From: Bacteroidales bacterium
GTDB taxonomy: Bacteria; Bacteroidota; Bacteroidia; Bacteroidales; UBA932
Reading direction: 5' to 3'
Length of the DNA: 64,000 bases
Assembly (NCBI GenBank): GCA_028686425.1
Contig: JAQUBZ010000002.1
Coordinates: 1-64,000 of the forward strand
Numbering within the stretch: position 1 is the first letter of the stretch; every line of letters starts with the position of its first letter. This document shows positions 53,871-64,000 of this stretch, piece after piece. Position numbers and translations under genes: made by a program. The notes under the pieces were generated by a model. It searched no databases, had not been told where the DNA came from, and saw only the letters and a program-made list of their open reading frames with translations.

Positions 53871-54479
53871 CTACAAAATTTTTAGAGGATTTCCCTTAGC
53901 AATCGAGTATGGCGGGATATTCTTGTTTACGACTGTATTTGCTCCGATTATGGAGTTGTGACCTATTGTTACATTAGGTAACACGGATACATTTTCTCCA
54001 ATCCATACATCATGTTCTATTTTGACCGGCCCTTTTGACACAAGTGCTCTTAGTTCAGGATGAATATTTAAATCGTCAATAGAGGAATTACCATGTGAAT
54101 GGTCGGTAATCAGCACATTGCTCCCCATAAGAACATTATCATCGATTATAATTTTTTTGATGCATCCGATATGACAATTGAAATTTAGGTGAACATTATT
54201 TCCTATTTTAAGCGAAGGGGTATAGCAATTATCATCATATTTATCAATACACTCCATACGTAGTCCCGGGCCTGAAGTAAAACTCTCTCCTATTGACATA
54301 TAACGATAACCAACAATGTAAATTGGAGCCACAATGTTGATTTTTCCGCTTGCCTTAACATGGATTTTAAATCTATATGATACAATCTTGTTTTTACCTT
54401 TTTTGATCTTTTCTGATAGCCAGAAAGGATAAAATAGAAGTGAGATTTTTGCACAGACATGACATAAGTAATCAATCAT
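53871..54479 (-). CDS. Left-handed beta-helix acyltransferase (WcaF/Maa-like)
   Basis: 202 residues. Hexapeptide repeats run from about 75 to 190 (IGNNVHLNFNCHIGC, IDDNVLMGSNVLITDHSHG, IEHDVWIGENVSVLPNVTIG, IIGANTVVNKNIPPYSIAKG). The catalytic His is in TDHSHGN. It would O- or N-acetylate a sugar of the repeat unit using acetyl-CoA. First gene of the minus-strand string; the -7 element TATCTTTG is at 54505-54512. Confidence 0.85.
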   Translation of the reverse strand: MIDYLCHVCAKISLLFYPFWLSEKIKKGKNKIVSYRFKIHVKASGKINIVAPIYIVGYRYMSIGESFTSGPGLRMECIDKYDDNCYTPSLKIGNNVHLNFNCHIGCIKKIIIDDNVLMGSNVLITDHSHGNSSIDDLNIHPELRALVSKGPVKIEHDVWIGENVSVLPNVTIGHNSIIGANTVVNKNIPPYSIAKGNPLKIL

Positions 54480-54504
54480 AGGTCGTAAAGTTTACTATCT
54501 TTTA

Positions 54505-54512
54505 CAAAGATA
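54505..54512 (-). promoter_or_regulatory. Bacteroidales -7 element before the acyltransferase gene
   Basis: Minus-strand TATCTTTG fits TAnnTTTG, 25 bases before the ATG at 54479. The 206-base gap 54480-54685 is the longest in the window and otherwise AT-rich and featureless apart from the facing plus-strand element. Confidence 0.4.
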
Positions 54513-54586
54513 CATTTTTCTTTTATTAATTGTTATATAATCTGAAATATATATACATAGTATTTTTTATAACTTTCGAATTGTTA

Positions 54587-54594
54587 TATATTTG
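54587..54594 (+). promoter_or_regulatory. Bacteroidales -7 element before the plus-strand glycosyltransferase
   Basis: TATATTTG fits TAnnTTTG; the leader to the ATG at 54686 would be about 85 bases, longer than for most genes here. Confidence 0.4.
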
Positions 54595-54685
54595 CAAAAC
54601 GTATTTCATAAATGTTGCAGTATATTGAGACACTCATATGTAAAAATATAGTTGTGTCAAATTTCTAAATAATTGAAAGAAAGAG

Positions 54686-56212
54686 ATGAAATTAAGCAAA
54701 AAAAAAATTATTAACCTATGCATAAAGTTTAGACAAAAAAGTGCAAAAGCATTTTTGGGCCACAATTATGATTTATGTTTGAAATATTTGCAAGCAGTTG
54801 CTTACACTAATTATACATTTTATCAAGGATATAAAGATGATGAAATAGAAAACATACTTAATAAGTTATCTTTAAAATTAAAACAACAACCATTCAAAAT
54901 GTTTGTTAAGGAGAACAGATGTGTATTTTATGATTCATTTTCACTTAATAATAAAGGATTGACTCAGCAGTATCTTCGGGCAATATTTAATGCAGGATGG
55001 GAACTTCTATATGTAACAGAAACCCCGAAAAATTATAAATATTCGAGAGATATAATTACTGAACTGCTTCAATATCCATTCTCCACGATTGTTTATATTC
55101 CACACAACCTTAGTGGACTGAAAAGATCACAATATATATATGATAAGATAATGGATTTCAATCCGTCAAAATTATTTATGCATATCACTCCTTGGTCTGT
55201 TGAAGCTACTACTGCTTTTTATAAGATTCCTAAATCGGTAATAAAGTACCAAATAAACTTGACTGATCACACTTTTTGGATAGGCTCAAAATGCCTTGAT
55301 TATTCATTAGAATTCAGGAATTATGGAGCCACAATATCTAAGAAATTTCGAGGGATAAGTCAAAATAATATCTTCATTCTACCATACTATCCAATAGTTA
55401 ATAATTCGACTTTTAGAGGATTTCCTTCTCAATGTAAGGATAAGGTTGTTATTTTTTCAGGTGGATCCTATTACAAGATAGTTGACGGAAATAATACTTA
55501 TTTGGAACTTGTGAAGAAAATATTGGATACGTATAAAGAAACAATTGTCTTATTTGCAGGAGATGGAAAACAAAATCTGTTTAAGCACTTTATCTCCGAG
55601 AATAAATATGAAGAAAGATTTTGTTTATTAGGATATCGATCCGACATTGATGAAGTGTTTAGAAATTGTGATATATATTTAGATACTTATCCAGTTGGAG
55701 GAGGATTGATGTGCCAATATGCTGCAAAAAACTCGAAGCCAATATTGTGCTTTGAACCGACACAAGCTAATACTTTAGAGAATTTTCTATGCCAAGTTGA
55801 TTATGAAAATATAACTACTCATACCATTGAAGATTTTTTAGAAGAAGCAAAGTGTCTCATTACCGATAAAGAATATAGAGTAAAAAAAGGAAGAGCGATT
55901 AATAAATGTGTAATTGATAATGTTCAATTTGAAAGTTTATTTATTAGGACTATTTTATCTAACAAGAATCAGATAAAATACTCTTTAGTGGATGACACGA
56001 AAATGCAAGGCTTCAATATCTACGATAAAATAGATTATGAAAATAATACGAAAGAGTATTTTGTAAATATTGTTAAGATATTGAGAATAAATGCTTTTTT
56101 TGATATACCCATTATTTCTTTTAATGCCATCTTTGCGGTATTTAAGAAATACTTAATACTTATTAAAAAAAAGATTATGCTATTTGTGTGCAAAGATAGT
56201 ATTCTTAAATAA
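54686..56212 (+). CDS. Probable GT-B glycosyltransferase, AT-rich
   Basis: 508 residues, the only plus-strand gene of the polysaccharide locus. N-terminal helices, then a GT-B-like pair of domains; visible pieces are VIFSGGSYYKIVDGN, IVLFAGDGKQNLFKHF, LLGYRSDIDEVFRNCDIYLDTYPVGGG, where the last resembles the donor-site region of GT-B enzymes that process sugar nucleotides. Ile, Lys, Asn and AT-ending codons are much commoner than in neighbours, suggesting recent acquisition. The final ~10 codons are antisense to the flippase gene (33-base overlap). Exact family is not recognised with certainty. Confidence 0.75.
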   Translation: MKLSKKKIINLCIKFRQKSAKAFLGHNYDLCLKYLQAVAYTNYTFYQGYKDDEIENILNKLSLKLKQQPFKMFVKENRCVFYDSFSLNNKGLTQQYLRAIFNAGWELLYVTETPKNYKYSRDIITELLQYPFSTIVYIPHNLSGLKRSQYIYDKIMDFNPSKLFMHITPWSVEATTAFYKIPKSVIKYQINLTDHTFWIGSKCLDYSLEFRNYGATISKKFRGISQNNIFILPYYPIVNNSTFRGFPSQCKDKVVIFSGGSYYKIVDGNNTYLELVKKILDTYKETIVLFAGDGKQNLFKHFISENKYEERFCLLGYRSDIDEVFRNCDIYLDTYPVGGGLMCQYAAKNSKPILCFEPTQANTLENFLCQVDYENITTHTIEDFLEEAKCLITDKEYRVKKGRAINKCVIDNVQFESLFIRTILSNKNQIKYSLVDDTKMQGFNIYDKIDYENNTKEYFVNIVKILRINAFFDIPIISFNAIFAVFKKYLILIKKKIMLFVCKDSILK

Positions 56213-57484
56213 AATGACCATTGTAATCATATAAATAAAATATGTTACAAGGTAGCCTTGTGTTATTCCTACAACTCCGTTAAACTTCATGAAAATAAAG
56301 GAGAGACCGACAAATAGGGCAGAAAACAATATTTCGGTGGCAATAAATGATTTAGTCATGGATTTGGCCACCATTAAAAATGAGAGAAGCCAACTTGAAA
56401 TCTTGAAAAAATCACCTGCGAGCTGCCAGATGAACAGATTTTCCATAGGGAGAAAATCGGGGGTGAAGAGTACCCTGATAATAAGAAATCTCAGAAAATA
56501 AATAGCGGCAAAACCGACAATGATGAGCGGGATGATTAACTTGTAGGCTGTAAATATCTCCTTCTTCAATTCGAGCTTATCGTGTATTTCTGATAAACGA
56601 GGCAAATAATAGACACTGAAAGAAGATGTTATGACCATCAGATACATGGAGGAAATCTTGTTCATCGATTCCCACCAGCCTGCTTCGACAATAGAAATAT
56701 TGGAAATCACATAACTTCGCAAGACCAATTGGGCGATAGGAACAGTGATAATTGTGGCAAACGTCATCAATGCGTATCCGAAATATTTTTTAGTAGTGTA
56801 TCTGTCTATTTTTTCCTGAAAATTTGATTTTTTGAACCACGGAAGTTTTCGCACCATCCACAATGTGATGACAAATATCACGCTCTGAAATGTTACTGCA
56901 CTGATCAGTGCTCCCTTCAATCCGAGAGTAAATACAAATATCAGTGTAAAGATAAGACCGACGACACTTCCTACAATATTGACAGTTACGTATTTCTTGA
57001 AATCCTTGTACCCGTTCAGGATAGAAACAAGCAGAGCATTTAAGGCATAAAATAGTATCGTAATGCCGAATATGATAAATACATATTCATATCCGTTGGC
57101 GAGCATTATGGTCCTGCTGAGAAAACTGTTGAATGCAATCATCAATATTCCGCAGATAAGGGAGCAGATGATAGTGATTTTCAGGGCTGTGGATAATAGG
57201 GTTTTGACTTTGCTGTCCGACTGTCTGAATTCTGCAACGTATTTGGTGATTCCGTTGTTGATCCCTCCACTCGCCGCAGTCATGGCGATTGATGAAAAGT
57301 TGCTCAACTGTCCGAGCAGAGCAACTCCCGATGGACCTATGACAATAGCTATGACTTTCATGCTGATAAAGCTTGTCAACATCTTGACAATAGTCGAAAT
57401 ACTTGTGAAAGAAAAGACTTTCACAATGTCCTGTCTGAATACCTTTTTGACAAATTGTCCGATATTGTCAATTATTCTCCCCAT
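56180..57484 (-). CDS. wzx: O-antigen translocase / Wzx-type flippase
   Basis: 434 residues, about 12 membrane segments, MATE/MVF-like fold. The opening [37 protein letters not shown] and [18 protein letters not shown] segments match the WzxE-like O-antigen translocase group. It flips the undecaprenyl-linked repeat unit across the inner membrane. It overlaps the aminotransferase gene by 13 bases and ends the long minus-strand operon that enters from the right edge. Confidence 0.9.
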
Positions 57485-58581
57485 TTGTTTAGTGCTGTTA
57501 TTACTGTATCAATCTCTTCCCGGGTCATTACCGGGCTCATCGGCAAGCTCAGTTCTTCTTCATGAATCTGCTCTGTGACAGGAAGTGACATTTCATTCCA
57601 TTGTTTGTAACACTCTTGTTTGTGAGGAGGAGTCGGATAATGGATGATAGTTTGTATTTCGCTGTCTGTCAAATAATTCTGTAAACCATCTCTTTCCCTG
57701 CATCTGATAGGGAAAATATGAAATACGTGTTGATTCCAATCGAATATCTTCGGAAGGATGATATTAGGATTTGTGATACTGTCTATATAATATTTTGCCA
57801 CTTGTTTGCGCAATGCTATATCATCGTCCAAATGTTTCAGTTTCACATTGAGTATTGCTGCCTGAATCTCATCGAGGCGGCTGTTACGTCCGGTGTATTG
57901 GAATATGTACTTTTTGTAAGAGCCGTAATTTGCCAATGCACGAACCGTTTTTGCAAGTTTTTCGTCATTGGTGGTGACAGCACCGGCATCTCCCAAAGCT
58001 CCCAGATTCTTGCCTGGATAGAATGAATGCCCTGCTGCATCACCGATTGAACCGGTCTTCTTCCCTTGATAAATACATCCGTGTGCCTGAGCGTTATCTT
58101 CAATCAATTTCAGATTGTATTTTTTGCAAATCTCGCCAATTCTGTCAGTATAAGCACATTGTCCGTAAAGATGAACAATACAGACGGCTTTTGTCTTCGG
58201 GGTGACAGCTTCTTCTATTTTTGAATCATCGATTTGGTATGTCTCAATGGATGGTTCCACAAAGACAGGTTTCAATCCATTTTCGGTTATGGCCAAGATT
58301 GTTGCAATGTATGTATTTGCGGGAACAATTACTTCATCGCCCTGCTTCATTACTCCCATTTCAATGTATGCCCTGAAAATCCAGATTAGAGCATCAAGGC
58401 CGTTTGCGCAGCCGATGCAATATTCAGTACCGATGTATTTGGCATAATCGGTCTCAAATCTTTCGTTCTCTCTGCCTTGAAGGTACCATCCTGAATCGAC
58501 AGTACGTAACACTGCTTCATGAATCTCATCAGCATATTTGGCTGTAACCTTTTGTAAATCAAGAAATTTAATCATTGTCAT
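57472..58581 (-). CDS. fdtB: DegT/DnrJ/EryC1-type sugar aminotransferase (FdtB/QdtB-like)
   Basis: 369 residues (or 367 if the second Met, 58575, is used). PLP enzyme: the Schiff-base Lys is in [15 protein letters not shown], with [12 protein letters not shown] and DNAQAHG also present. The best-fitting group makes dTDP-3-amino-3,6-dideoxyhexoses from the 3-keto sugar, and the FdtA-type genes upstream in the operon support this. Overlaps both neighbours by 13-14 bases. The choice between galacto (Fuc3N) and gluco (Qui3N) products cannot be made here. Confidence 0.85.
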
Positions 58582-59194
58582 AATCGTCTAATTTAAATAT
58601 TTCACCGTGTCCGGGATAGACAGTCAGTCCCTTGTTGTGATAAGTTGAAAGTAATTTGGAGATACTACTTCTCATTTGTTCGTATGAGCCGAATCTTTTA
58701 TTGGTAAATAACTTATACTTCATAATGGTGTCTCCGGTGAAAAGTATATTATTCAGAGTAAAACACATTGAGCCACCTGTGTGCCCCGGTGTCATAATAA
58801 ATTCGATCGAGATATAGTTCCAATCCAAAATATCTTTGTCATGGACCGTAATATCCACTTTTTTAACTTTGTATTGGTAGTCAGGATCATCCATATAAAA
58901 TCTGAAATAAGCATCACTCGAATGAGGTAATTCTTGAGCGCATTTTTCAGAACATACAATCTTCGTGAAGGGATATTTTTCGATTAGTGCATTACAACCC
59001 CATGTATGGTCGGTATGTTCGTGTGTGAGAACGATATAGTCGAGAGAGTATCTCCCCGATTCGATAAAATCAATTTCGCGCAGGCTGTGTTCACTTCCGG
59101 GGTCAATCACGATACAATGTCTTATCGAATTGTCATAAATTATGTAACAATTGGAAGACATCAAGTCATTGACATATCGTATCACATTAATCAT
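58568..59194 (-). CDS. Metallo-beta-lactamase-fold hydrolase
   Basis: 208 residues from ATG 59194, one base after the KAS III stop; a GTG at 59215 would overlap it. Zinc ligands: THEHTDH (HxHxDH), TPGHTGG, FTGDT and the late PGHGE. Glyoxalase II-like size. In this operon, next to a condensing enzyme and ACP, a thioesterase role (releasing or editing acyl groups) is the simplest idea, but this is inference; the family also includes unrelated hydrolases. Confidence 0.85.
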
Positions 59195-59195
59195 A

Positions 59196-60197
59196 TTAAA
59201 AAAACAAAGCAACACCGCCCCATGTATAACCTAACCCCTGGGCTACAGATAATACCTTGGTACCCTGCTTGATAGAACCATCTTGCAAGGCATGGACAAT
59301 AGCAATAGGTATGGTGGAGGAGACAGTATTTCCGCTATTCTCAAAACAGCAATAGTACTTATCTTCAGGGATGTGCAACTTCCGTCTCTGTAATTCGGCA
59401 ATATATTTATTGGCCTGATGAAAAATGTGCAGATCTATATCTTCAAGAGCGATGTGATTTCTTTTGAGTACGTCATCTGTCACCTCAGGGATGCGGTCAA
59501 GGGTATAATTCAAGATTTCCGGACCATTCATATAAATGAAGTCTGATGAATTGGGGTTCCCGAAGTCGTCAAAAATCAAGTCGTTAAGTGGTTGTCTGTG
59601 GCGTGCACCACCGGTCCTGACTATCAGATTGTCAGCTCCCGAACCGTCTGTTCCGAAACTGAATTCTCCAATTGAGGCAATCCCTTCCGTGCTTATGATT
59701 GAAGCACTTGCTCCATCTCCGAAAATTGTCCTGTTTCCTTTATCTCGAGGGTGCATGTATTTGGAGTAGGTTTCGGCAGTGAGAAGGAGGATATTTTTAG
59801 CAATACCTGCAAAAATAAGCCCTTTTGCCACCGACAGTGAAGCTATGAATCCTGAACAGCCTAAATTTATATCCAGCACACCGATCTTTTTGGAAAGACC
59901 GAGCCTGTTCTGAATCAGACAGGCCGTTGTCGGGAGAATGTAATCGGGGCTTTCAGAGCAGAATATGCAGTAATCCACCTCGCTGCAATCAGTTTTGTGC
60001 TCAGAAAATAATGTCTCTGCCGCATTTACGGCAAGATCGGCAGCTGTCTCGTCATCTCGAGTGATGTGCCTTGTCTTGATTCCCAGTTTTTTTTCGATTT
60101 TTGCCTCGGTCCATTCCGGGAAATCATTGGCCAATTGAGCATTATCCACGATTGTCTCTGGCAGATAATATGATATGTCTTTAATATATGCTTCCAT
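59196..60197 (-). CDS. 3-oxoacyl-ACP synthase III-like condensing enzyme
   Basis: 333 residues from ATG 60197 (54 upstream codons of the frame lie within the SDR gene). FabH-type thiolase fold with the full triad: Cys114 (NLGCSGF), His260 (FHQAN) and Asn290 (NSGNT). It would condense an acyl-CoA with malonyl-ACP. Set between an ACP/SDR pair and an MBL hydrolase inside a polysaccharide operon, so it is unlikely to be the housekeeping FabH. Confidence 0.9.
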   Translation of the reverse strand: MEAYIKDISYYLPETIVDNAQLANDFPEWTEAKIEKKLGIKTRHITRDDETAADLAVNAAETLFSEHKTDCSEVDYCIFCSESPDYILPTTACLIQNRLGLSKKIGVLDINLGCSGFIASLSVAKGLIFAGIAKNILLLTAETYSKYMHPRDKGNRTIFGDGASASIISTEGIASIGEFSFGTDGSGADNLIVRTGGARHRQPLNDLIFDDFGNPNSSDFIYMNGPEILNYTLDRIPEVTDDVLKRNHIALEDIDLHIFHQANKYIAELQRRKLHIPEDKYYCCFENSGNTVSSTIPIAIVHALQDGSIKQGTKVLSVAQGLGYTWGGVALFF

Positions 60198-60205
60198 TCT
60201 TATAT

Positions 60206-60952
60206 TTATGCAATACAATAGCCCCCATCTATTAATAAATTTATTCCTGTTACCCAGCTTGATGCGTCGGAAAGAAGATAGATTGCTCCGTTTGCAATAT
60301 CCGAAGTCGTTCCGAGTCGCTTGAGCGGGTAAATATCTTCCGGGTGCTCTACTTCCCAAATCATGTCATCAAACATTTTAGTCATTTCCGTTTGAATAAA
60401 TGCCGGACAGATGGCATTTACCCTGATATTCTGGGGTGCAAGTTCAAGTGCCGCATCTTTAACAAAGCCGGAAATGGCTCCTTTTGAAGCTGCGTACATA
60501 CCTTCTCCAGGCTTCGACTTATATACACCGGATAAGGATGCGATGTATATAAGTGATGACTGTTTCAGAAATTTCTTTTTTTTCAAAAGTTGGGCCGTTA
60601 AAAGAATAGGAGAGATCTCATTAATATTGACTATCTCTTCCAGAATATCGCGTGTAATGAATTTAACCTGTGACAACTTTGCGATACCTGCACAAAAAGC
60701 ACAGCCGTTGAGTGTTGGAGTATTATTTGCAATTTTATCAATGCCTTCCTGAGTGGATAAGTCTGCGGCGATAACAGTGTGTCCTGTACCACTTAACGAT
60801 TGGAAAGTCTCATCAAGGCGCGTCTCGTTTCTTCCTGTAATGACAAGTCTGGCCCCCATGTCGGCGCAGGCGGCTGCAATACCTCTTCCGATACCTGAAG
60901 ATGCTCCGGTAACCAGAATTATTTTCCCCTCTAATGAAAAAGGATTATGCAT
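60206..60952 (-). CDS. SDR oxidoreductase, FabG-like
   Basis: 248 residues. Classical SDR: GASSGIGRG cofactor loop (about 16-24), catalytic Ser in YIASLSG and the Tyr-Lys pair in YAASKGA, and a SWVTGINLLIDGGY end. Probably reduces the 3-ketoacyl-ACP made by the adjacent KAS III to 3-hydroxyacyl-ACP; a nucleotide-sugar reductase is the alternative. Starts 2 bases after the ACP stop. Confidence 0.88.
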   Translation of the reverse strand: MHNPFSLEGKIILVTGASSGIGRGIAAACADMGARLVITGRNETRLDETFQSLSGTGHTVIAADLSTQEGIDKIANNTPTLNGCAFCAGIAKLSQVKFITRDILEEIVNINEISPILLTAQLLKKKKFLKQSSLIYIASLSGVYKSKPGEGMYAASKGAISGFVKDAALELAPQNIRVNAICPAFIQTEMTKMFDDMIWEVEHPEDIYPLKRLGTTSDIANGAIYLLSDASSWVTGINLLIDGGYCIA

Positions 60953-60954
60953 AA

Positions 60955-61182
60955 TTATTTGCTGATTGCCAGATTAAATAAGTCCTCAATAGTGTTGCTG
61001 TTGCGCAAATCGGCTCCTGTGATTCGTTTTTCCAATTGTTCATCAACCATTGCAATGATAGAAAGGGCGGTCAGAGACCCCCATTCATCCAAATTTTTGA
61101 ACTCCGTTGTCGGAGTAAATAATTCAATCGGAGTCTCGTCAAATTCTTCAGCAAAAGCTGTAACAAATTCATTTAATGTCAT
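60955..61182 (-). CDS. Acyl carrier protein, atypical
   Basis: 75 residues. Four-helix ACP with the phosphopantetheine Ser36 in DEWGSLTAL; the canonical D-S-L is replaced by G-S-L after a Trp, typical of specialised ACPs rather than the fatty-acid synthase ACP. Located between the malonyltransferase and the SDR reductase, with 2- and 14-base gaps, it is the likely carrier of this cluster. Confidence 0.88.
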   Translation of the reverse strand: MTLNEFVTAFAEEFDETPIELFTPTTEFKNLDEWGSLTALSIIAMVDEQLEKRITGADLRNSNTIEDLFNLAISK

Positions 61183-61196
61183 ATCAATTATTGATT

Positions 61197-62123
61197 TTAG
61201 TTATTAGTTGTGTTTATATTTTTTAAATTAGAATAATTCCAAATTGAGTCGGTATGCTTGTCCGGATACATTCTGGATACTATTTTTTGAAGAGTGTCAT
61301 CTGTCCCTATCTCGTAAAATTCGTCTATTCCATCTCGTACCATATTGTTAACCATCGATGTCCACTGCACTCCGTGAGTGATATGAGCTATCAGATTTTG
61401 TCTTATTTCTTCAGTATTAGTGTGGACTTCTCCGTCAACACATTGATATATAGGTGTTCGCGGTGTCATAAATCGTGTTTTTCGGATAATGTCTCCTAAT
61501 TCAGTCTCAGCTTCTCTCATGTATGGTGTATGGAAACTGCCACTAATCATAAGAGGAACGGCCTTTTTTGCTCCTTCTTTCATAAATGCCTTACAAGCAG
61601 TCCTGATACCTTTTTTGGATCCTGAAATGACAACTTGACCGGGACCGTTGAAATTTGCAATATAAATTGGTTCACCTGTTTCGTCCCATATCTCATTGAT
61701 GCGCTTTGCTACATATTCTTCAGACAATCCTATCACTGCTCCCATAGCAGTAGAATATTTTTCACAAACTTTCTGGCCGATAACGGCTCTGTTGAACACA
61801 AGATTCAGACCATCCTCAAAAGAGATACAACCATTAACCACAAGAGCTGCAAACTCTCCCAAAGAGTGACCTGCCACAGCATCGGACTTGAAGGCATCTT
61901 GCACGGTTGCAAGTATCACTTCGTATAAAAACACGGCAGGTTGTGTATTTTTGGTTTCTAACAAGTCCTCTTCGGTCCCGTAAAACATGACATCCGAAAT
62001 CCTCCTTCCAAAATATTCGTTGGCTCTTTCGAACATCTCCTTTGCTTTCGGGAACTTTTCGTAAAGTTCTCTGCCCATACCTTCTCTCTGACACCCTTGC
62101 CCCGGAAATATAAAAGCTTTCAT
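61197..62123 (-). CDS. ACP S-malonyltransferase-like (FabD)
   Basis: 308 residues. Loads malonyl from CoA to an ACP. PGQGCQREGMG start, GHSLGEFAALV with nucleophile Ser87, the NRAVIGQ segment with the carboxylate-binding Arg expected for malonyl, and catalytic His in SGSFHTPYM. Full length. It follows the hexapeptide acyltransferase gene by one base. It might be the organism's only FabD, but the setting suggests a dedicated copy. Confidence 0.9.
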   Translation of the reverse strand: MKAFIFPGQGCQREGMGRELYEKFPKAKEMFERANEYFGRRISDVMFYGTEEDLLETKNTQPAVFLYEVILATVQDAFKSDAVAGHSLGEFAALVVNGCISFEDGLNLVFNRAVIGQKVCEKYSTAMGAVIGLSEEYVAKRINEIWDETGEPIYIANFNGPGQVVISGSKKGIRTACKAFMKEGAKKAVPLMISGSFHTPYMREAETELGDIIRKTRFMTPRTPIYQCVDGEVHTNTEEIRQNLIAHITHGVQWTSMVNNMVRDGIDEFYEIGTDDTLQKIVSRMYPDKHTDSIWNYSNLKNINTTNN

Positions 62124-62124
62124 G

Positions 62125-62757
62125 TTATTCTAATTTTTTCGCCGGATTACCAACTACTGTTTCATTATCCTTAACTTTCCTGACAACCACACTTGCTGCA
62201 CCCACCACGCTTTCGGTGCCTATTTTAACTTTAGGATAAACGAGTGTACCGGTGTATATAGTCGATTTATCCGATATTTCGTTCATTCCACAAAGGGTGC
62301 AGTTTACAAACAAATGGTTAAAGTTTCCTATTTTAGTATCGTGCCCGATGTTGCATAAATCCTGTATGATATTATGATTTCCAATGACCGTATTGGCCGA
62401 AATAGTGGAGAAAGCACCGATGAGGTTTCCTTTCCCCAATGAAGCTGTCGAAAAAACATTGGAATACGGATGAATTACATTTACAAACTCACATCCTTTC
62501 TCCGTCATCTCACCAACGATTGATGCTCGTATATCATAATCTGCAATAGGACAAATAAACACCTGATTATCAGAAATATGGAACTTATTGTAGCTTCCTT
62601 CAACGTGTGCATCGTATGGGTATTCGGCCTTAAAGTCATTCCCAGGCAGGATAATACCGGCTACAGACCACATAGTGCCACTTTCTTTCATTAAAGTCGC
62701 ATATTCAAATGCAATCTGAGCCAAAGGGCCCTCGCCTATGATATAGAGTTGTGTCAT
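62125..62757 (-). CDS. NeuD/PglD-type hexapeptide acyltransferase
   Basis: 210 residues. N-terminal PglD-like Rossmann part (LYIIGEGPLAQIAFEYA) and C-terminal left-handed beta helix with hexapeptide turns (IGAFSTISANTVIGNHNIIQDLCNIGHDTKIG); catalytic His in NIGHDT. Relatives N-acylate the amino group of nucleotide-linked amino sugars. Here it is placed between the ketoisomerase fusion and the ACP genes, so it may transfer the acyl group built by the cluster. Start overlaps the preceding stop (ATGA). Confidence 0.87.
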   Translation of the reverse strand: MTQLYIIGEGPLAQIAFEYATLMKESGTMWSVAGIILPGNDFKAEYPYDAHVEGSYNKFHISDNQVFICPIADYDIRASIVGEMTEKGCEFVNVIHPYSNVFSTASLGKGNLIGAFSTISANTVIGNHNIIQDLCNIGHDTKIGNFNHLFVNCTLCGMNEISDKSTIYTGTLVYPKVKIGTESVVGAASVVVRKVKDNETVVGNPAKKLE

Positions 62758-63737
62758 CGTTGCAAATTTAATAACTTCTCAATCTTTGCCCTATTGAGGA
62801 CAAAATCCTCCTTAGTGAGTGTCATCGTGTAGTAAATGCCTTTAGTATCTTCAAGTGTCCCCGAAATGACCATGCCAATCATTTTGTTGAATTTCAAAAC
62901 TTTTCTATTGTCCCTATGACAACCGTCATATCCGTTTTCAAGTTCCATACCAAAAGTGTCGAAAGCGATGTTTCTCGGAATAATAGAAGAAGCCACTACG
63001 TCATTGACACTTGTCCCTTGAGTGCAAAGCCAACTGCCACTTGTAAAAATCTTATCTTTCCATCGTATGCTGTAAAGTCTGTTAAGTGCGAAAGGCTTGT
63101 TGTCTCTGCTAAAGATAAAATAGTAATCCAATCCCTCTTTTTCCCGCTGTTTATAATTGTGTATCCATTGTATTTGTAATTCTATGTCTGGAGATGTATC
63201 GTGTATGAATTGAGATAAATGAGGATCTGTGCGAAGTTTCAATATGAATGCGGCATCATTTTCATTGACAAGACGAACATCTATTCCATACATCCGAGTT
63301 TCAAAATCGGATGGAAGCAATTTTTTCTTATAGCCTAAAAAATTAGGATAGTCTCTGATATAGTCAGCTTCGTCATAGGTCTCGGATGCCAATACAAGAC
63401 AAACCGAACCTGAAGAGAAGTTATTCAATTCACGCCATATTCCCGGGACGACATACAATCCCTGGTACGGACGATTGAGGGTAAATGTCTTCTTGTGATA
63501 ACCATCATCCAATATGACGTCAAAACATCCGCTTGCCGCTATTATTAACTGCCGCAGTTGTCTATGTGCGTGTGCCCCGCGTTCTTCGCCACCCGGAATA
63601 TCGTAGAGATAATAGGCCCGTTTAATGTCGAAGGGGATTGTAGAATTATTTTCGACAACTGTAATATTCCCTTTGCGGTCGCTATGATGGCGATCCAATT
63701 CAATGACATGACAATCATTTATTGTTGAGCTATTCAT
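62754..63737 (-). CDS. FdtA/QdtA-type 3,4-ketoisomerase fused to a GNAT domain
   Basis: 327 residues. Residues 1-137 are a WxcM-like cupin of the dTDP-4-keto-6-deoxyglucose 3,4-ketoisomerase family, with the catalytic pair in ERGAHAHRQL and the FDVILDDG and WRELNNFS strands. Residues about 150-327 form a RimJ/RimL-like GNAT acetyltransferase (RLVNENDAAFILKLRTDP start). Known bifunctional relatives join the cupin to a hexapeptide acyltransferase; a C-terminal GNAT partner is different. Overlaps the upstream paralogue by 8 bases and the next gene by 4. Confidence 0.85.
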   Translation of the reverse strand: MNSSTINDCHVIELDRHHSDRKGNITVVENNSTIPFDIKRAYYLYDIPGGEERGAHAHRQLRQLIIAASGCFDVILDDGYHKKTFTLNRPYQGLYVVPGIWRELNNFSSGSVCLVLASETYDEADYIRDYPNFLGYKKKLLPSDFETRMYGIDVRLVNENDAAFILKLRTDPHLSQFIHDTSPDIELQIQWIHNYKQREKEGLDYYFIFSRDNKPFALNRLYSIRWKDKIFTSGSWLCTQGTSVNDVVASSIIPRNIAFDTFGMELENGYDGCHRDNRKVLKFNKMIGMVISGTLEDTKGIYYTMTLTKEDFVLNRAKIEKLLNLQR

Positions 63738-64000
63738 GTTCGACCTCCTTCAAAAAGTTATCATAATTGCGTATGTAGTCACTCTCATCATATTTTGTAG
63801 AAGACAAAATCAAAGCAAGAGAATTGGTCGAGAAATTGTTAAGCTCTCTCCATGTTCTATTCGGGATATATAATCCATAATATGATCGATTTAAAGAAAA
63901 GGTTTTTTTCTCTTTTCCATCATCAAGAATAACATCAAAACTTCCTGAAAGGGCAATTATGCACTCTTGATTCTCCCTATAAGCATGCCCTCCGCGAGCT
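63730..64000 (-). CDS. FdtA/QdtA-type 3,4-ketoisomerase paralogue, 5' end outside window
   Basis: The last 89 codons of a second cupin ketoisomerase, closely related to the cupin half of the next gene (shared SGxFDVILDDG, KKTFxLNR, WRELNNFS, YDExDYIR and YxNFL). It ends after LKEVEHE with no fused domain. The active-site motif reads RGGHAYR, so the second conserved His of HAH is Tyr. This may mean altered activity or specificity. The start and N-terminus lie beyond the right edge. Confidence 0.8.
   Translation of the reverse strand, partial: ARGGHAYRENQECIIALSGSFDVILDDGKEKKTFSLNRSYYGLYIPNRTWRELNNFSTNSLALILSSTKYDESDYIRNYDNFLKEVEHE

Follow-up and report, generated by a model that had tools for sequence, protein, structure and literature searches.

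A predicted dedicated 3-hydroxyacyl line with an FdhC-type acyltransferase domain in an amino-sugar operon of a Bacteroidales bacterium

Self-contained routes to hydroxyacyl sugars that run on an acyl carrier protein (ACP) are already known, since precedents have been published from Pseudomonas syringae, Flavobacterium psychrophilum and enterobacterial flagellin islands. In P. syringae, vioS, vioR, acp and vioB are assigned to 3-hydroxybutyryl-viosamine (carrying a 3-hydroxy-1-oxobutyl group); the source reports mass-spectrometry data and a vioR mutant without the modified viosamine, and cites vioA, vioB and vioT mutants from earlier work (PMC3927599). For F. psychrophilum, a 2019 study linked wfpC, wfpD, wfpE, wfpF and wfpG to a 3,5-dihydroxyhexanoyl group whose structure was known (PMC6519341), while ACP and FabG genes are described in enterobacterial flagellin islands (PMC4875605). 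FdhC, a Fuc3N 3-hydroxybutanoyl transferase, is reported to convert Fuc3N to Fuc3N(R3Hb) in the Hafnia and E. coli O-antigen (PMC4869667). Here we analyse an operon at the end of a 64,000-nucleotide stretch of a Bacteroidales genome (assembly GCA_028686425.1, contig JAQUBZ010000002.1, positions 1 to 64,000; hereafter the window), in which genes for an acyl-ACP line stand among those for a 3-amino-3,6-dideoxyhexose. A preliminary description of the window, made from its sequence, had called a self-contained ACP route of this kind not well described, which does not hold in view of the P. syringae and F. psychrophilum papers.

The operon is like the P. syringae viosamine island (vioA, vioS, vioB, vioR, acp) and the related glycosylation island of P. 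aeruginosa PAK in clustering ACP, 3-ketoacyl-ACP synthase III (KAS III), 3-oxoacyl-ACP reductase, sugar aminotransferase and acyltransferase genes, and the P. syringae product, a 3-hydroxybutyryl amide on a dTDP-linked dideoxyhexose, is of the kind proposed here. That island differs, however, in its 4-amino sugar, its VioB transferase and its flagellin glycan, and the seven open reading frames listed for it include no FabD, metallo-beta-lactamase (MBL), FdtA or GCN5-related N-acetyltransferase (GNAT) gene. Since the window operon has two FdtA genes and is not a 4-amino-sugar system, we regard it as working like the P. syringae line and not as a member of its class. With the O-polysaccharide genes wfpC-wfpG of F. 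psychrophilum, likewise a member of the Bacteroidota, it shares an ACP, a KAS and a reductase devoted to making a hydroxyacyl amide on a nucleotide-linked amino sugar. As far as the available text of that source goes, the differences lie in two KAS genes instead of one, a six-carbon 3,5-dihydroxyhexanoyl group on Qui2NAc4N, a PglD-like transferase and a FabD that is not named. A further likeness is to the FdhC/QdhC 3-hydroxybutanoyl transferases found with FdtA-FdtB or QdtA-QdtB (E. coli O103, Hafnia, Acinetobacter), which have a homologous GNAT and the same type of sugar pathway. The term "acyl carrier" is absent from the two papers on these systems that were searched for it (PMC3726653, PMC4869667), whereas the window operon fuses the GNAT to its second FdtA and supplies the acyl line itself. 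In the open-licence papers searched, we found neither an FdtA-GNAT fusion described nor an acyl line that occurs together with FdtA and an FdhC-type GNAT, and this combination of parts looks new within known chemistry.

Searches with Pfam and NCBIfam confirmed the gene set: FabD, ACP, a FabG-like short-chain dehydrogenase/reductase (SDR), KAS III and an MBL hydrolase lie in one minus-strand operon between two FdtA genes and a DegT aminotransferase gene. The preliminary description had recognised this operon with its ketoisomerase, acyltransferase and DegT genes, and the catalytic residues that it named in FabD, ACP, SDR and KAS III are all intact (Table 1). Transcription runs from FdtA1 through FdtA2-GNAT, a hexapeptide acyltransferase (HexAT), FabD, ACP, SDR, KAS III, MBL and DegT to a flippase, and all junctions, judged from the gene coordinates, are overlaps or gaps of at most 14 nt. 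Two corrections concern the ketoisomerases: the first continues for 146 nt past the window edge, where the gene is completed, and the second is a two-domain FdtA-GNAT protein, which had gone unrecognised. KAS III scores 234 bits against TIGR00747 fabH (cut-off 292.1), and its Cys/His/Asn triad is invariant in the KAS III alignment. The MBL protein matches TIGR03413 gloB at 4.5e-21 with 75.3 bits, below the cut-off of 200.8, and DegT stays below the cut-offs of the 4-aminotransferase equivalogs (PseC 195.4 of 423.5 bits, WecE 136.2 of 434.85 bits).

Table 1. Features of the operon, in order of transcription (positions are those of the window)
Feature	Coordinates	Strand	Evidence
FdtA1, dTDP-4-keto-6-deoxyglucose ketoisomerase-like	64146-63730 (63730..64000 in window)	-	PF05523 1.9e-53 for the whole gene; HAY replaces the HxH motif
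FdtA2 (residues ~1-140, HAH motif) fused to FdhC-type GNAT N-acyltransferase domain (~149-327)	62754..63737	-	PF05523 2.9e-54; GNAT to 5kta 1.1e-22
HexAT, NeuD/PglD/VioB-like hexapeptide acyltransferase	62125..62757	-	TIGR03570 154 bits, below the cut-off of 160.8, nearly full-length alignment
FabD, predicted dedicated malonyl-CoA:ACP transacylase	61197..62123	-	TIGR00128 263.9 bits (cut-off 260.9); Ser87 (GHSLG); GSFH motif
ACP, predicted dedicated acyl carrier protein	60955..61182	-	PF00550 21.5 bits (cut-off 20.8); Ser36
SDR, FabG-like (3-oxoacyl-ACP reductase)	60206..60952	-	PF13561 5.9e-47; YAASK, Tyr153-x3-Lys157
KAS III	59196..60197	-	PRK09352 250.4 bits, just above the cut-off of 249; Cys114/His260/Asn290
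MBL-fold hydrolase, GloB-like, possible hydroxyacyl-thioesterase	58568..59194	-	PF00753 2.4e-21; HEHTDH at 58
DegT/FdtB/QdtB-type sugar 3-aminotransferase	57472..58581	-	PF01041 1.5e-106; QdtB 3frk 9.1e-114 among best solved relatives
Wzx-type flippase, overlaps the aminotransferase gene	56180..57484	-	PF01943 1.8e-16

The GNAT domain (residues 149-327 of the second ketoisomerase gene) has FdhC (5kta, 1.1e-22, domain residues 6-161) as its best and sole convincing relative of solved structure, and is linked to the 3-amino-3,6-dideoxyhexose pathway by the FdtA domains and by a DegT whose best relatives of solved structure include QdtB. By sequence homology, the operon thus encodes a relative of a known 3-hydroxybutanoyl transferase for such sugars, which strengthens the earlier chemical guess of a 3-hydroxybutyryl group but shifts it to another protein. 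It is likely that this domain is the acyltransferase for the hydroxyacyl group. An AlphaFold model of FdtA2-GNAT, built on a seven-row alignment, has a mean predicted local distance difference test (pLDDT) score of 43.

The acyl set of the operon is an extra one, because the genome has its own fatty acid synthesis (FAS) genes on another contig (C35, with SDR, FabA/Z-type, FabF-type and FabH-type genes and a PF03060 protein interpreted as FabK) and a second FabD on C46. Identities of the operon proteins to these housekeeping copies are 48% for FabD, 27% for KAS III (to FabH) and 33% for the SDR (to FabG). We therefore rejected both the operon line as the sole FAS of the genome, given the separate run on C35, and its KAS III as the housekeeping FabH, given the TIGR00747 score below cut-off and the 27% identity. 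RmlB is encoded on C45. The contig extends to 115 kb, and the 16 kb past the window edge that we examined encode, among others, a DUF4842/DUF4114 protein, a glycosyltransferase, a glycosyl hydrolase and an aldose epimerase. Neither these 16 kb nor positions 44-64 kb of the window yielded a dehydratase or an enoyl reductase (blastp with the genome's own FabZ and FabK; Pfam for seven genes past the edge), in agreement with what had been proposed from the window; a missing pair just beyond the edge was rejected accordingly.

Related cassettes are common. At E 1e-60, the KAS III of the window by itself has matches in 33 of the 295 genomes searched from the order, and an alignment scan confirmed at least 522 relatives, of which the best 80 named loci were analysed; since these were picked by KAS III similarity, line genes are overstated in them. 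By record title nearly all of the 80 are Bacteroidota, with a few Treponema/Spirochaetia and one Eubacteriales. An ACP gene lies within 6 kb of KAS III in 73 of them (51 of the 52 with both flanks longer than 4 kb) and an SDR gene within 4 kb in 71 (47 of the 52), while one KAS gene is present in 57 loci, two in 22 and three in one. FabD occurs in 10 loci, MBL in 7, FdtA in 5 and GNAT in 6. MBL accompanies FabD (4/10 FabD loci vs 3/70 without FabD, p 0.004), and GNAT accompanies FdtA (4/5 FdtA loci vs 2/75 without, p 5e-5). A NeuD-like hexapeptide gene within 5 kb was seen in 24/75 loci without FdtA vs 1/5 with FdtA, which is not significant, and in 0/6 GNAT loci; the window's combination of GNAT and hexapeptide genes is unusual among these loci. 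Blastp with the genome's own proteins only (E 1e-3) detected FabZ- or FabK-like genes in none of the 80 loci, so stopping at the 3-hydroxyacyl stage looks like a general property of the cassettes; L098 has a FabF-like match. The FabD-ACP-SDR-KAS III block recurs in L088-L092, in L088 with a short hexapeptide transferase gene before FabD. Chance linkage of line and sugar genes was rejected from the gene neighbourhoods of the KAS III and FdtA loci. Five loci titled Treponema or Spirochaetia (L111, L114, L121, L129, L162) carry related KAS III-ACP genes, which reflects either gene transfer or mis-binned contigs.

GNAT and acyl line were also followed from the sugar side. Ten GNAT loci were obtained, with matches in 7 of the 393 genomes examined from the order and in 3 of the 395 drawn from the phylum, the window's own being one of these three. 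ACP or FabD lies within 10 kb of GNAT in seven of the ten (G000, G219, G239, G744, G729, G475, G168). The ACP-like gene of G475 was detected by hidden Markov model (HMM) alone and G168 has FabD only; the HMMs, whose results the counts follow, picked up an ACP-like gene in L086 where blastp had seen none. An FdtA search matched 76 of 247 genomes, from which 60 loci were fetched in addition to those of G000, G219, G239 and G168, with 15 lower-scoring places left out. HMMs built from the cassettes themselves, which detect the genes in L051, L079 and others, found no KAS III, ACP or GNAT in the 60 loci, whereas GNAT and acyl-line genes are present in all four remaining ones (in G168 FabD only; Fisher p 1.6e-6, with loci not independent and relatedness uncorrected). 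GNAT and line thus travel together near FdtA in this order. The co-occurrence of line genes and FdtA, suggested earlier as a check, is seen at the four GNAT-bearing FdtA loci of this sample and at none of the 60 others.

The closest relative, L079, reads FdtA-FdtA-GNAT-FabD (70%)-ACP (67%)-SDR (56%) with no hexapeptide gene between, and then breaks off where its contig stops. In L051 the arrangement is shorter (FdtA-FdtA-GNAT-ACP-KAS III-DegT), and SDR, FabD and MBL have no match there. Four loci (L093, L118, L159 and L141, the last from Mucilaginibacter oryzae DSM 19975) hold two FdtA genes, GNAT, ACP, SDR, KAS III and DegT on one stretch, the fullest matching set being that of L093.

We propose the following pathway, in which the chain length and stereochemistry of the group, its donor and the acting transferase are predicted. 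FabD would load malonyl onto the private ACP, KAS III would condense malonyl-ACP with an acyl-CoA, of which acetyl-CoA is the most likely, to give acetoacetyl-ACP, and the SDR would reduce this to 3-hydroxybutyryl-ACP. With a single KAS and neither dehydratase nor enoyl reductase, the line would halt after one round. In parallel, RmlB (encoded on C45), the two FdtA proteins and DegT would make dTDP-3-amino-3,6-dideoxyhexose, to whose 3-amino group the FdhC-type GNAT of FdtA2 would transfer the hydroxyacyl group before glycosyltransferases and a flippase encoded nearby use the acylated sugar for a surface glycan. Removal of stalled (hydroxy)acyl-ACP thioesters is the probable role of the MBL hydrolase. 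A dedicated acyl-ACP line ending at a 3-hydroxyacyl group and tied to the 3-amino-3,6-dideoxyhexose pathway, the core of the preliminary description, is supported, and we consider the dedicated 3-hydroxyacyl line very likely. The published two-KAS system yields a six-carbon dihydroxy chain, and the single KAS here thus fits one round and four carbons; a C4 product can be expected with reasonable confidence, and the product is probably 3-(3-hydroxybutyramido)-3,6-dideoxyhexose. The explanation as a whole, in which a short 3-hydroxyacyl group is made and loaded by the operon's own enzymes and then transferred to the amino sugar by the GNAT, is somewhat less secure but is the one that we favour.

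Several observations weigh against this explanation. Three of the ten GNAT loci (L082, L084, L085) lack ACP, FabD and KAS III in about 20 kb, and two of them (L082, L085) lie beside FdtA, as exceptions from the GNAT search outside the FdtA sample. L051 keeps GNAT, ACP and KAS III without SDR, L142 combines FdtA, line and a hexapeptide gene without GNAT, and FabD is the only line gene seen at the G168 locus (L080), whose contig is 3.2 kb long and whose FdtA2 and GNAT frames are interrupted. Starter and chain length cannot be read from the sequence. The genome also encodes one 3-hydroxyacyl-CoA dehydrogenase-type (3HCDH) gene and no thiolase over cut-off (assembly 92% complete). A thiolase route to acetoacetyl-CoA is therefore not evident; given the 3HCDH gene and the completeness of the assembly, a CoA route to the acyl group might nonetheless exist.

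The hexapeptide enzyme, which had been named as the acyltransferase in the preliminary description, looks intact, and the His residues of its GHD and NH motifs align with those of perosamine N-acetyltransferase at the active site. It could thus be this NeuD/VioB-like protein that works on the private ACP, while the GNAT acts elsewhere or only acetylates. VioB and WfpG are both hexapeptide enzymes. The acyltransferase role is assigned to VioB in P. syringae (PMC3927599) and to the PglD homologue WfpG in F. psychrophilum (PMC6519341). The gene stands directly before FabD here, as in L087 and L096, and the genome's sole other near full-length DegT match adjoins its own hexapeptide gene, so that no separate 4-amino sugar is evident for HexAT. 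However, six loci with FdtA, GNAT and line genes (L079, L051, L093, L118, L141, L159) have no strong NeuD-like match nearby (weak hexapeptide matches lie at least 5 kb off in L051 and L159), the six GNAT loci among the 80 have none within 5 kb, and HexAT is only 29% and 27% identical to its counterparts in L087 and L096, as against 77% and 66% for FabD. This comparative context favours the GNAT; we regard transfer by the hexapeptide enzyme as unlikely, and its naming as the acyltransferase as probably wrong or incomplete.

The same line might also make another 3-hydroxyacyl amide, if the starter acyl-CoA or the extender were another one or if the KAS iterated. Such bacteria have further short acyl-CoAs to draw on, and at least two KAS genes occur in 23 of the 80 best related loci. 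In L093 a glyoxalase-fold gene (L093:7492-7896) lies between FabD and ACP, and by its resemblance it might be an epimerase for a branched extender unit. The window has a single KAS, though, and its FabD keeps the GSFH motif, which is usually taken as the malonyl type and is also found in nine of ten FabD relatives (the tenth is a partial frame in which it was unread). We judge another chain to be distinctly unlikely. Transfer before reduction appears improbable: acetoacetyl from KAS III and ACP would be put on the amino sugar and the SDR would then reduce the sugar-bound 3-oxo group. Such an order is implied in the P. syringae paper, where the vioR mutant is explained by VioT not using dTDP-N-acetoacetylviosamine (PMC3927599), and it would suit L051 with its missing SDR, but the SDR close to KAS III in 71 of 80 loci with diverse acyltransferases is at least as compatible with a substrate bound to ACP. 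That the line makes a lipid or fatty-acid primer without relation to the amino sugar and stands in the operon by chance is conceivable because all line proteins are FAS-like and could feed a general pathway, and is very improbable in view of the separate FAS run, the recurrence of related cassettes in loci with sugar amino- and acyltransferases, and the lack of a dehydratase or reductase partner in the regions searched.

Beyond the favoured explanation, transfer by the GNAT domain of a 3-hydroxyacyl group built in the operon, we tentatively suggest a more specific model, which we hold to be plausible rather than probable. FdtA2-GNAT might be bifunctional, isomerising the sugar and taking 3-hydroxybutyryl directly from the private ACP as an ACP-dependent form of FdhC, and FabD-ACP-SDR-KAS III might be an interchangeable acyl module of Bacteroidota surface glycans in which KAS number sets the chain (one for 3-hydroxy C4, two for dihydroxy C6). 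If it is true that FdhC-type GNATs use acyl-ACP and that KAS number sets chain length, the hydroxyacyl decorations on the coats of these bacteria could become predictable from genomes. Through the operon, a chemistry described for Pseudomonas flagellin and for the O-antigen of one fish pathogen would reach 3-amino sugars. Judged from the best 80 of at least 522 confirmed relatives, private acyl lines are a widespread feature of glycan loci of the Bacteroidota type.

Some relatives vary the scheme. The FdtA-GNAT locus L081 (L081:8475-16613) carries AMP-binding enzymes in place of KAS III together with a pair of ACP-like genes, one of which scores slightly below the Pfam cut-off, as if its GNAT used acyl groups from a ligase-loaded ACP. 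A second KAS-ACP-SDR set within the FdtA-GNAT locus L118 (L118:11255-14127) is followed by an aminoglycoside 3-N-acetyltransferase-type gene (PF02522), which may be another sugar acyltransferase. In L080 the interruptions are stops in the second FdtA and GNAT frames (L080:508-1500), due to sequencing error or decay. FdtA itself mostly comes in tandem pairs of fixed order: across L204-L263 and related loci, 49 of 57 pairs have HAF or HAY upstream and HAH, HSH or HGH downstream. In the remaining pairs the first motif was unread (5) or the second was another one (3); 8 pairs are fused in one frame, and 13 of 70 FdtA loci have no tandem pair. Rather than acting as a second isomerase, the upstream copy may serve as an altered partner.

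On its 3' side the operon core is followed by the flippase, glycosyltransferase-like genes, a hexapeptide gene and a methyltransferase-type gene. G+C content falls to 0.296 at window positions 54001-56000, compared with 0.37 in each flanking 2 kb and about 0.41 at greater distance. This stretch covers a plus-strand glycosyltransferase-like gene (54686-56212, Pfam below cut-off) that faces the minus-strand operon, and it is possibly a recent insertion.

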